A stretch of DNA of 64,000 nucleotides, from NCBI RefSeq assembly GCF_026967925.1, contig NZ_JAPVBI010000002.1, forward strand, positions 921,628 to 985,627, written 5' to 3'. Positions 29,351-31,404 of this stretch are shown here, in pieces. Below the pieces are notes generated by a model. The model saw nothing but the letters and a program-made list of their open reading frames with translations. It did no database searches and was not told the DNA's origin. The position numbers and the translations under genes were made by a program. Origin of the DNA: Modestobacter sp. VKM Ac-2985 (GTDB lineage Bacteria > Actinomycetota > Actinomycetes > Mycobacteriales > Geodermatophilaceae). Numbering within the stretch: position 1 is the stretch's first letter; each line of letters opens with the position of its first letter.

Positions 29351-29389
29351 AGAACGGCCCCCGCGATCTCTGGTCGCGGGGGCCGTTCT
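29351..29389 (+). terminator. terminator after icd
   Basis: A perfect 16-bp stem (29351-29366 with 29374-29389), 7-base loop, 13 bases after the icd stop. Confidence 0.88.
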
Positions 29390-29404: not shown

Positions 29405-29470
29405 GTCGAGATCGGGGTGGTGGCTGCCTCGATCGGGTCGAGGCAGCCGCCGGCCCGAGGTGATCACCGC
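29405..29470. repeat. left 66-bp inverted repeat of the DUF559 cassette
   Basis: Structure from outside inward: a 17-base segment (2 differences from the right copy), a hairpin with arms GGCTGCCTC (29422-29430) and GAGGCAGCC (29440-29448) around a 9-base variable loop, 5 variable bases, and the fully conserved CCCGAGGTGATCACCGC (29454-29470), which includes the palindrome GGTGATCACC. It is an inverted copy of 30393-30458. Confidence 0.9.
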
Positions 29471-29520
29471 CCTGTGGACGACGTCCGCGGCGGGCAGGCG
29501 GGTCGCGGCAGGCTGCCCCG

Positions 29521-30399
29521 GTGCCGATCCCGCCGTACCGCCCCGCCGTGCTCCGCGGGCGGGTCTTCCGTGGCACCTGGGCGATCGAGACAGGGGTGCT
29601 GACCCGGGCGCAGCTGCGGAGCTCGGCCTGGCGCCGGCTGCGGCAGGACGTCCACGCCGACGCGGCGTTGCCGGACACCCATCGGCTGCACGCCCGCGGC
29701 GCGGCGCTGCGGATGCCCCGGGGGGCCGCGCTGGGTGGGCGGAGCGCCGCGGACCTGCTGGGGGTGGCCGACGTGGCGGGCGCGGGGGACCCGGTCGAGG
29801 TGGTGGTCCCGGCGGGCACCCGCTGGGACCCGGAGCCGGGGATCGTCGTCCGGGCAGCCGACCTCGACGGCGCCGTGCTGACCCGGGGGCCCTTCCTCCG
29901 TTGGACGACCGGCCTGCGGACGGCGGTCGACCTGGCCCGGTTCGCGCCGCCGGAGGAGGCGGTCGTCCTGCTCGACCAGCTCGTGCACGCACGGGTCGTG
30001 GACCTCACTCAGGTCCGGGCGGCGGTGAGCGCCCTGCCCACCTGTCGCGGGTCGGCACGGGCCCGCCGGGCTGCGGCGGCCGCGGACGGGCGGGCGGAGT
30101 CGCCCCAGGAGACCCGGGTGCGGCTGCTGCTGGCGGCGCACGGGCTGCCCGCGCCGGTGGCGCAGCACGAGGTGCGCAGCGGTGGGCGCTTCCTGGCCCG
30201 CGTCGACTTCGGCTGGCCCGAGCGCCGGGTGGCGCTGGAGTACGACGGGGTCTGGCACGACGGACCCGGTCCGTTCGTGCGGGACCGGCAGCGGCTCAGC
30301 GCCCTGGCGGCCGCCGGCTGGCGCGTCCTGGTCATCACCGCGGCCGACCTGCACGCCCCGGAGCTGCTGATCGCCCGGCTGCGCGCGGCCCTGCGGTGA
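29521..30399 (+). CDS. DUF559 endonuclease-fold protein (AbiEi-like N-terminus)
   Basis: A 292-residue protein. The N-terminal part (RGRVFRGTWAIETGVLTRAQLRS, LRQDVHADAALPDTHRLHARGAAL, LGGRSAADLLG) matches the AbiEi-like domain common in actinobacterial proteins. The C-terminal DUF559 domain, of the Vsr/restriction-endonuclease fold, has ESPQETRVRLLLAAHGLP, the acidic RVDFGWPERRVALEYDGVWHDG and RDRQRLSALAAAGWRVLVITAADL. The acidic D/E..EYDG..H residues are the expected nuclease site. GTG 29521 starts 50 bases inside the left inverted repeat, and the stop codon TGA (30397-30399) lies inside the right one. No toxin partner gene is adjacent. The biological role is unknown. Confidence 0.88.
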   Translation: MPIPPYRPAVLRGRVFRGTWAIETGVLTRAQLRSSAWRRLRQDVHADAALPDTHRLHARGAALRMPRGAALGGRSAADLLGVADVAGAGDPVEVVVPAGTRWDPEPGIVVRAADLDGAVLTRGPFLRWTTGLRTAVDLARFAPPEEAVVLLDQLVHARVVDLTQVRAAVSALPTCRGSARARRAAAAADGRAESPQETRVRLLLAAHGLPAPVAQHEVRSGGRFLARVDFGWPERRVALEYDGVWHDGPGPFVRDRQRLSALAAAGWRVLVITAADLHAPELLIARLRAALR

Positions 30400-30458
30400 T
30401 CACCTCGGGCTGAGGGCTGCCTCACCGTGGTGGAGGCAGCCACCAGCCCGTTCTCGAC
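30393..30458. repeat. right 66-bp inverted repeat of the DUF559 cassette
   Basis: Reverse-complement partner of 29405-29470. The 17-base inner block 30393-30409 is identical, the hairpin arms (30415-30423 and 30433-30441) are identical, and the 9-base loop and 5-base spacer differ. The outer 17 bases (30442-30458) match at 15 positions. The DUF559 stop codon is inside it. Confidence 0.9.
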
Positions 30459-30471
30459 GAGTGGCGGACGC

Positions 30472-31404
30472 TCAGGCGCCGAAGAGCTGGGTCCACCACG
30501 GGCCGCCGGAACCGGTGGCGACCCCGACCCCCAGCGTGCGCAGGTCGCAGTCGAGGATGTTCGCCCGGTGCCCGGGGCTGGTCATCCAGGCCGCCATCAC
30601 CGCGGTCGCGTCGGGCTGGCCGGCGGCGATGTTCTCCGCCCGCGCGTGGCCCAGTCCCGCCGCGCGAGCGCGGGCGAAGGGGTCCAGCCCGTCGGGGCTC
30701 ACGTGGGAGAAGTAGCCGCGGTCCCGCATGTCGGCGCTGTGCGCCCGGGCGACCGTCGCCAGGCCGGCGTCCGCACTGACCGGGGCGCAGCCTGCGGCGG
30801 CCCGTTCGACGTTCACCAGGGCCAGCACCTGCCCCTCGGGCCCGGGAGCCGCCGGTGCGGCTGCCGCTGCGGGGCGGGGTGCGGCCGCCGCGGCCGGCGG
30901 AGGTGCGGGCGCCCGGGCGGGCGCCGGTGCTGCGCCAGCGGCCGGCGCAGGTGCCCGGGGCGCGGGTGCGGCGGCCGGCGGTGGAGGCGGCGGAGCGGGG
31001 GCCGAGCCCGGGGCAGGAGCAGGAACCGGGGCCGGTGGGGGCGGCGGCGCCGGTACCGCGGTGGTGGTCGACGCCGACGGCTCACCTGTGCTGCCGGTCG
31101 CCGGGGCGGGCGCAGTGCTGGACGCCGCAGGGTCGCTGGACGCCGCAGGCTCGCTCGGGGCAGCGGGCGGTGCGGCGTCCGCCCGCTGCTCGACGTCCGT
31201 GGCGCGCTGCTCGACGTCCGTGGCCTGCGAGGCGTCGTCCAGGCCGGGCAGCAGGCGGCCGCCCAGCACGGTGGTCAGGGCGACCGCGGCGACGACGACG
31301 GCGACCAGCACGAGCGCCCACAGCGACCGGTGGCGTCCGGCCGAGGACGGCGGGGTGCGGCGGTGCGGCACGTCGACGTCCTCACGGTGAGTCCAGCTCG
31401 TCAC
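30472..31404 (-). CDS. secreted/anchored CAP-domain (SCP-like) protein
   Basis: A 310-residue protein: a cytoplasmic tail with RRTPPSSAGRHR, one membrane helix (SLWALVLVAVVVAAVALTTVL, about residues 27-47), a small tandem repeat (TDVEQRA twice), a long Ala/Pro linker (about 70-180), and a C-terminal CAP domain. The domain has LALVNVERAAAGCAPVSADAGLATVARAHSADM, GYFSHVSPDGLDPFARAR, AENIAAGQPDATAVMAAWMTSPGHRANIL and the closing WWTQLFGA. The linker is typical of proteins reaching through the wall. GTG 31404 follows a -10 box. The function of bacterial CAP domains is not established. Confidence 0.9.
   Translation of the reverse strand: MTSWTHREDVDVPHRRTPPSSAGRHRSLWALVLVAVVVAAVALTTVLGGRLLPGLDDASQATDVEQRATDVEQRADAAPPAAPSEPAASSDPAASSTAPAPATGSTGEPSASTTTAVPAPPPPPAPVPAPAPGSAPAPPPPPPAAAPAPRAPAPAAGAAPAPARAPAPPPAAAAAPRPAAAAAPAAPGPEGQVLALVNVERAAAGCAPVSADAGLATVARAHSADMRDRGYFSHVSPDGLDPFARARAAGLGHARAENIAAGQPDATAVMAAWMTSPGHRANILDCDLRTLGVGVATGSGGPWWTQLFGA

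Follow-up and report, generated by a model that had tools for sequence, protein, structure and literature searches.

In Modestobacter sp. VKM Ac-2985, a gene for a nuclease-like protein is enclosed by two structured DNA segments in inverted orientation, and the question raised by this locus is whether the gene and its ends belong together and, if so, what keeps them together. A comparable arrangement is described for the REPtrons: in the portions of PMC2817692 and PMC3733652 used here, RAYT genes (TnpA-REP, Y1/HUH) lie between two inverted REPs, and further REPs or REPINs are dispersed. We examined the locus in a window of 64,000 nucleotides (the whole stretch of DNA analysed) and compared it with related loci in other genomes, referred to by G numbers for genomes and L numbers for loci. 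The answer reached is that the window locus is probably one unit of a large actinobacterial family, REPtron-like in its layout and carrying an unrelated enzyme, a nuclease of the Vsr/EDxHD type.

The features of the locus are collected in Table 1. The initial annotation had placed two inverted 66-bp segments 50 bases before the start codon and over the stop codon of the gene, and this placement proved to be exact: the left end finishes 50 bases upstream of the GTG start codon at 29521, and the TGA stop codon (30397-30399) lies inside the right end. The two ends, 66 nt each, are 83% complementary and 922 nt apart, and self-BLAST matches them to each other at an E-value of about 1e-14. Their internal pattern was likewise confirmed in every part. 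Namely, the inner 17-base block CCCGAGGTGATCACCGC and the 9-base arms GGCTGCCTC/GAGGCAGCC are identical between both ends, the outer 17 bases match at 15 positions, and the loop and the 5-base spacer match at 3 of 9 and 2 of 5 positions, respectively (counted by eye).

Table 1. Features of the nuclease-gene unit and its neighbours (window coordinates)
Feature	Positions	Strand	Remark
Left end	29405-29470	+	hairpin palindrome and inner block; from alignment and self-BLAST
Left-end hairpin arms	29422-29430 and 29440-29448	+	within the left end
GGTGATCACC	29459-29468	+	in the inner block of the left end
CTGTGGACGACG motif	29472-29483	+	between left end and start codon; recurs in the family
Nuclease-like gene, 292 aa	29521-30399	+	C-terminal DUF559/Vsr-like nuclease domain; N-terminal part of uncertain identity
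Right end	30393-30458	-	inverted copy of the left end; overlaps the stop codon
icd, 404 aa	28123-29337		name from the initial annotation and context
CAP-domain gene	30472-31404	-	CAP, E 2.3e-23

The window unit scores 80 in the inverted and 45 in the direct orientation. When 34 large ORFs of the window were treated with the same geometry and scoring, the median was 26 and the 95th percentile 39.5; the top control ORF (29460-30413, score 80) overlaps the window unit itself, and the next one scores 46. A lenient blastn self-scan returned long weak matches in this GC-rich DNA, and stricter scoring and a position-restricted test were used. A scan of the 64-kb window for solo ends gave no strong copy outside the unit. 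Directly after icd, an inverted repeat was also seen (29351-29389), its 16-base arms matching perfectly and its loop being 7 bases long; this terminator-like hairpin is separate from the unit, and similar ones follow icd in the relatives, as judged by eye.

The encoded protein had been called DUF559 nuclease-like. This name holds for the predicted Vsr-like fold and for the homology found by profile, whereas the match to Pfam DUF559 (PF04480) reaches 18.5 bits, under the curated cut-off of 20.6; the label therefore rests on weak sequence similarity plus the fold. At E-values up to 5, the only other Pfam match is MTES_1575 (16.6 bits), and at 1e-3 no Pfam family was found in the protein, Y1_Tnp (the Y1 HUH transposases) included. 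The Vsr model TIGR00632 gives 16.2 bits against a cut-off of 97.85. The predicted structure has a mean pLDDT of 93.8, and its best Foldseek match in the PDB is 3r3p, the catalytic domain of I-Bth0305I (E 1.3e-3, probability 1.00, TM 0.65-0.67 on the target); no PDB entry matches with an E-value as low as 0.001. The second match, to Rv2827c (1zel), is weak (E 5.9e-3, TM 0.40, rmsd 10.6); we take Rv2827c to be an AbiEi-type antitoxin. A profile built from 28 relatives finds 3hrl, an endonuclease-like protein, at E 2.9e-6, 3r3p at E 5.9e-4 and Vsr at an E of about 6e-3. Five residues are kept in nearly all members: E197 and D229 in 88 of 89 each, E240 in 87, H246 in 83 and D255 in 82. These acidic and histidine residues are probably the equivalents of the EDxHD residues. 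Sixteen chosen pairs give low dN/dS values (0.09-0.32). What the N-terminal part of the window protein represents is uncertain. In the alignment, the icd-site gene of G007 (L031) contains a short out-of-register stretch near the active site, which is either a sequencing error or decay.

How general is this arrangement? Homologues of the gene were found in all 23 genomes of 23, with 1-12 per genome among the matches listed. At 89 loci, the region before the start codon was aligned with the reverse complement of the region around the stop codon (L043 gave no usable hit). The median end-match score was 59, and 75 of the 89 loci reached 38 or more, this threshold being the 95% level of pairs taken from mismatched loci (median 27); the control with window ORFs puts it at 39.5. 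For the mismatched control, the value at the 99th percentile (207) stems from overlapping or orthologous loci, so that the median and the 95% level were used. With 40 loci added, the set comprised 127 units with both flanks, which are a sample containing part of each genome's units. In this set, 103 Modestobacter units score at least 38 and 24 score below it; 94 also have the expected geometry, with the left end no more than 150 bp before the start codon and the right end no more than 60 bp from the stop codon. The inner distance has a median of 925 bp (67 of the first 89 units, score at least 45). At L079, L099, L075 and L086, two or three palindromes per end were seen instead of one.

Across the class, the means for direct repeats are nearly equal to those for inverted repeats (55.5 vs 57.8), the inverted score is the higher one in 69 of 127 units, and the highest direct score, 117, is exceeded by no unit. 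Since the ends are palindromic, the direct score is nearly as high, and the direct-repeat control is unusable as a null. Two palindrome copies are thus the most fitting description of the class; the window unit is clearly inverted.

A search of the phylum gave a homologue at E 1e-15 or better in 37 of 296 genomes. A search with the single window protein gave seven related loci. Among 29 loci outside the genus, 17 lie above the 95% level and 14 above the 99% level of 812 mismatched pairs, and 12 fall under the 95% level. Hairpin ends are visible in Modestobacter sp. Leaf380 and in Pseudonocardia sp. CNS-004. Another recurrent element is the motif CTGTGGACGRCG, which follows the left end and precedes the start codon. 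TGTGGAY occurs within 130 bp upstream in 80 of 128 units and in none of the 128 downstream control stretches. A set of 35 loci, either named or more distantly related, was scanned on both strands; nine have a related motif (control, one), which in some of them reads TTGTGGACAAC or TTATCCACA. We presume that the CTGTGGACGACG motif resembles half a DnaA box and that TTGTGGACAAC and TTATCCACA resemble a DnaA box.

Every end is itself a palindrome or a hairpin, whose sequence depends on the clade and is alike within a unit. The types found include GGTGATCACC, CGAGTGACAGCTCAGCG, GTTGATCATCGGC, AAATGGCCATTT, TTTCGGCGCCGAAA and GCGCTTTCGCGC. Ends were compared in seven orthologous site groups comprising 41 units that score at least 45; two more groups of at least four were omitted, having too few qualifying units. 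The mean identity between the two ends of a unit is 0.80-0.93, as compared with 0.66-0.86 between left ends of different species, the former value being favoured by the selection at a score of 45 or more and by arms defined from that same alignment. The ends are clearly more alike within the unit in five of the seven groups and not in the L033 and L050 groups, and for 20 of the 41 units, the best-matching end is the partner in the same unit. A left end is about equally similar to the right and the left ends of other species, which suggests that both ends change in concert. When units at different sites are compared, ends are shared in 46% of 26 pairs at protein identities of at least 70%, and in none below 50%. 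The correlation between protein similarity and end similarity is not significant for different-site pairs (Mantel, r 0.113, 88 of 999 permutations); for all pairs, r is 0.239 (0 of 999 permutations).

The palindromes also occur away from the units. AAATGGCCATTT was searched in 23 genomes: there are 36 copies in the window's own genome, and 6-42 copies, the units' own included, in all nine of the genomes from which a unit with this palindrome at either end, or at both, was sampled. It is absent from nine genomes, and the reversed sequence, used as a control, is absent from all 23. G018 and G013, with 11 and 13 copies, have same-site units with a related core, while G006, G011 and G015 have one or two copies each and no unit among those sampled. 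The palindrome ATGGCCAT was found in 10 of 178 loci, nine of which are units of the genus; in these nine, it lies 32-68 bp before the start codon or 8-42 bp after the stop codon, and nowhere else there. In some units (L078, L081, L090), the exact core is present at one end alone. The sequence beside the core follows the genome's units as well: in G000 and G008, whose units have CAG, 28 of 41 copies show CAG arms, vs 2 of 27 in G021, G003 and G017 (Fisher p 3.8e-7; 15 of 36, 26 of 42, 13 of 18, 10 of 11 and 4 of 17 copies fetched, nine genomes represented by a single fetched copy excluded). In two of the excluded genomes, G004 and G002, the fetched copy mismatches the genome's own unit.

Seven doublets were found, with copies 46-55 bp apart. 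Pairing of the arms was examined in 77 distinct copies. Of six positions next to the core, one is invariant, and the five that vary form pairs in 69-75 of the copies, whereas shuffling the partners gives a mean of 35-39; the existence of two subfamilies and of related copies contributes to this pairing. Paired arms of this kind would suit a hairpin as well as a duplex site with two-fold symmetry. As for the location, a heuristic gene call puts the 3' end of an ORF no more than 60 bp away for 49 of 65 copies, and 17 of 65 lie inside a called ORF. The initial annotation had named the wide occurrence of repeats without DUF559 genes as an observation that would speak against a unit. Solo copies are indeed common, but many of them are cognate to units in the same genome. 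A second family, TTTCGGCGCCGAAA, was found in 8 of the 23 genomes, and its reversed control in none. There are 20, 27 and 26 copies in G006, G017 and G001, where a cognate unit is found, and 19 in G007, 6 each in G005 and G002, 5 in G014 and 2 in G010, where none was among those sampled. This is the outcome after 18 extra loci had been fetched for the six TTTCGGCGCCGAAA genomes that were without a sampled unit, among which G001 alone had one. This family, with five of its eight genomes having no sampled cognate unit, fits the model less cleanly. In G029, which belongs to another family, the 14-mer arm of the unit occurs seven times, namely three times in the unit and four times at three other places; the same kind of 14-mer test gave one copy in G111 (one also in the reversed control) and none in six other genomes. 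A repeat of about 53 bases with an inner palindrome, seen at L161:2631-2683 (G000:C2, about 564147), also has many copies in the genomes of the genus. At gathering score, Rfam gave no match in the window or in L161.

Orthologous sites carrying different palindromes provide another view of this dispersal. Site E, the orthologue of G000:C1:420276-421275, could be located by both flanks in 19 genomes. In 17 of them, an insert of 57-118 bp is present, containing a palindrome, a pair of palindromes or a long hairpin; by best match, the inserts belong to about seven end families. In G014 and G017 the site is empty, with 11 and 8 bp between the anchors. The inserts match units of their own genome. 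With the first 89 units, the own-genome match is 738 against a permuted mean of 491 (p 0.0001). With 129 units, 14 of the 17 inserts match an own-genome unit at a score of at least 45 (p 0.0001; total 943, mean 566 and maximum 900 in 9999 shuffles), the 40 added loci having been chosen partly to seek missing matches at this site, a choice that the 89-unit test predates. Five of the eight missing matches were then found (G005, G006, G007, G013 and G019), and the inserts of G004, G016 and G010 stayed unmatched after more loci of these genomes had been fetched. Two further sites show solo palindromes in some genomes and another family, a whole unit or nothing in relatives. At site C (L179-L199), at least eight genomes have a DUF559 homologue; G008 and G021 carry a single icd-type hairpin without a gene, G020 carries a different hairpin and G002 a ATGGCCAT palindrome, and in G003 the site is nearly empty (15 bp). 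Occupied and empty sites represent a difference between species that may reflect gain or loss.

The icd site was examined in the same manner. With the 66-bp left end as the query, matches were found in 12 of 39 genomes, and the window's own genome gave six of them at four places. The icd-type palindrome accordingly has few solo copies, with three other places in its own genome. Among the 20 genomes with icd, 12 have the full-length gene with its ends, one (G018, Modestobacter sp. VKM Ac-2977; L003/L118) has the gene in fragments with the left hairpin still there, and seven are without the gene. The alternative that the pair is fixed in all relatives as part of the icd locus, with no empty sites, is thus at variance with these seven genomes. 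In two of them, G004 and G013, whose icd is 99.75% identical to that of the window, a piece of the left end remains. The junction there retains GCCGAGATCGGGCTGGTGG of the left end and, by eye, looks like a short-homology deletion rather than a pre-insertion site. G005 has kept the gene tail and the right end, and G009 a single solo hairpin; G002, G015 and G022 have neither unit nor relic, G022 being less certain because its neighbouring CAP gene is 38% similar. In view of the relics, loss is favoured at this site. No fresh insertion was found at icd among the 20 genomes; only losses are visible.

The idea that the gene and its ends form a unit comparable to REP/RAYT systems, with an enzyme of another class, is borne out by these data: the arrangement recurs in the genus (94 of 127) and in the phylum (17 of 29), the ends are clade-specific, cognate palindromes are dispersed, and palindrome families turn over at site E, which is empty in two genomes. 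We propose that the nuclease would bind its own palindrome, probably in dimeric form and with a hairpin or a two-fold symmetric sequence as its site, and would cut or nick it. Repair or strand transfer would copy palindromes into new intergenic places, and would also keep the two ends of a unit alike. The unit itself would be inherited mostly vertically, and its occasional loss would leave solo palindromes behind. Judging from the sequence comparisons, the nuclease probably acts on the palindromes and may thereby spread them. Going further, we lean towards the view that this is a second, independent origin of the REP type, in which Vsr/EDxHD nucleases of Actinomycetota would each maintain and spread a palindrome family of their own. 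Enzyme clade and palindrome would co-diverge rapidly, with several non-cross-reacting pairs in one genome and about seven families at one site.

Part of the evidence can also be read in another way, which we consider doubtful but worth serious attention: a free-standing EDxHD endonuclease of the homing type cleaves the palindromes, and repair from other palindromes or from the unit spreads them and keeps the ends alike. I-Bth0305I is the best structural match, and it is reported, in the part of PMC3943268 available, to dimerise on a target nearly 60 bp long; the replacement of families at one site and the joint change of both ends are also in line with this reading. Nevertheless, apart from icd in G009, where a loss is possible, we saw no site at which one palindrome family occurs as a solo copy and also around the gene, and conversion alone leaves the copies absent from relatives unexplained, unless there were losses. 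It seems improbable that the palindromes are operators by which the N-terminal part, in the manner of an AbiEi antitoxin, autoregulates the gene, the solo copies marking its regulon. The position of the left end, 50 bp before the start codon, and the weak Foldseek match to Rv2827c would suit an operator, but a second full copy at the stop codon would not, nor would solo copies that lie mostly near gene 3' ends or palindrome families that replace each other at site E; moreover, Pfam finds no AbiEi domain in the window protein.

The initial annotation had also considered a self-mobilising cassette. A unit moving as a whole, like an insertion sequence with the nuclease as its transposase, would have a gene with matching ends, as seen here, and several homologues per genome (the 1-12 among the matches listed). 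However, clustering of the 89 loci by single linkage on either flank gives 24 site groups, the largest comprising 12 species; among the 129 units sampled, no two from one genome are more than 72% identical; and no target duplication was identified. Because the sampled units occupy orthologous sites, their paralogues within a genome have diverged to about 72% identity or less, and no fresh insertion is seen at icd, transposition of the whole unit was set aside as very improbable. The last reading, that ordinary terminators or structured 3' ends flank these genes by chance, is scarcely credible. Hairpins are common at gene 3' ends, and the copies do lie near such ends, but the pairs of ends in the units exceed both the mismatched-locus pairs and the other genes of the window, and the palindrome type tracks the genome's own units.

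The reading preferred here, a nuclease that would act on its own palindromes, can now be set beside known systems. No description of repeats flanking DUF559 genes was found in the titles, abstract openings and passages of the open-licence papers searched; an earlier account elsewhere is possible. Two relatives by fold are known from other settings. With the EDxHD homing endonuclease I-Bth0305I, which has the long dimeric target mentioned above, the window family shares the predicted nuclease fold and the conserved acidic and histidine residues, and a DUF559 gene of Thermosynechococcus is assigned to the EDxHD homing family in the available part of PMC9403480. The window family differs from I-Bth0305I in not having been seen in an intron or intein and in being palindrome-flanked and multi-copy, with dispersed cognates. 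With VsrA of Caulobacter it shares the DUF559/PD-(D/E)XK fold; in the section of PMC12907096 consulted, VsrA is proposed to be an enzyme of the mismatch-repair type linked to a cytosine methyltransferase, and that section describes no flanking repeats.

The likeness to the REPtrons, as portrayed in the passages cited at the outset, goes further. In both, a gene of a nuclease family lies between two palindromes, inverted in the case of the window unit, and cognate palindromes are dispersed as single copies or doublets, near gene 3' ends, with repeats specific to their units and with differing families in related species. The enzyme differs: a Vsr/EDxHD-type nuclease here, an HUH transposase there. 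The palindromes of Actinomycetota are, in addition, often perfectly two-fold symmetric and of several families per genome, and no common tetranucleotide comparable to the GTAG/GTRG head of REPs was found beside the 77 copies of one family inspected by eye. In the excerpts of PMC2817692 and PMC3733652 at hand, the enzymes linked to REPs are HUH transposases only, and PMC3733652 reports CGTC REPs without a dedicated enzyme.

The spread of REP palindromes is still poorly understood. If our reading is true, a REP-like arrangement evolved at least twice, and a large group of multi-copy genes without a known function gains a role. It would also offer many natural enzyme-target pairs whose specificity is readable from the flanking palindromes and directly testable. 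A family of non-HUH nucleases tied to dispersed palindromes of its own matches no kind of system that we could find, although counting any arrangement of a nuclease plus REPs as one kind would place the family within it. Since the HUH enzyme is absent from the unit, it is not a REPtron by membership, though it appears to work like one.
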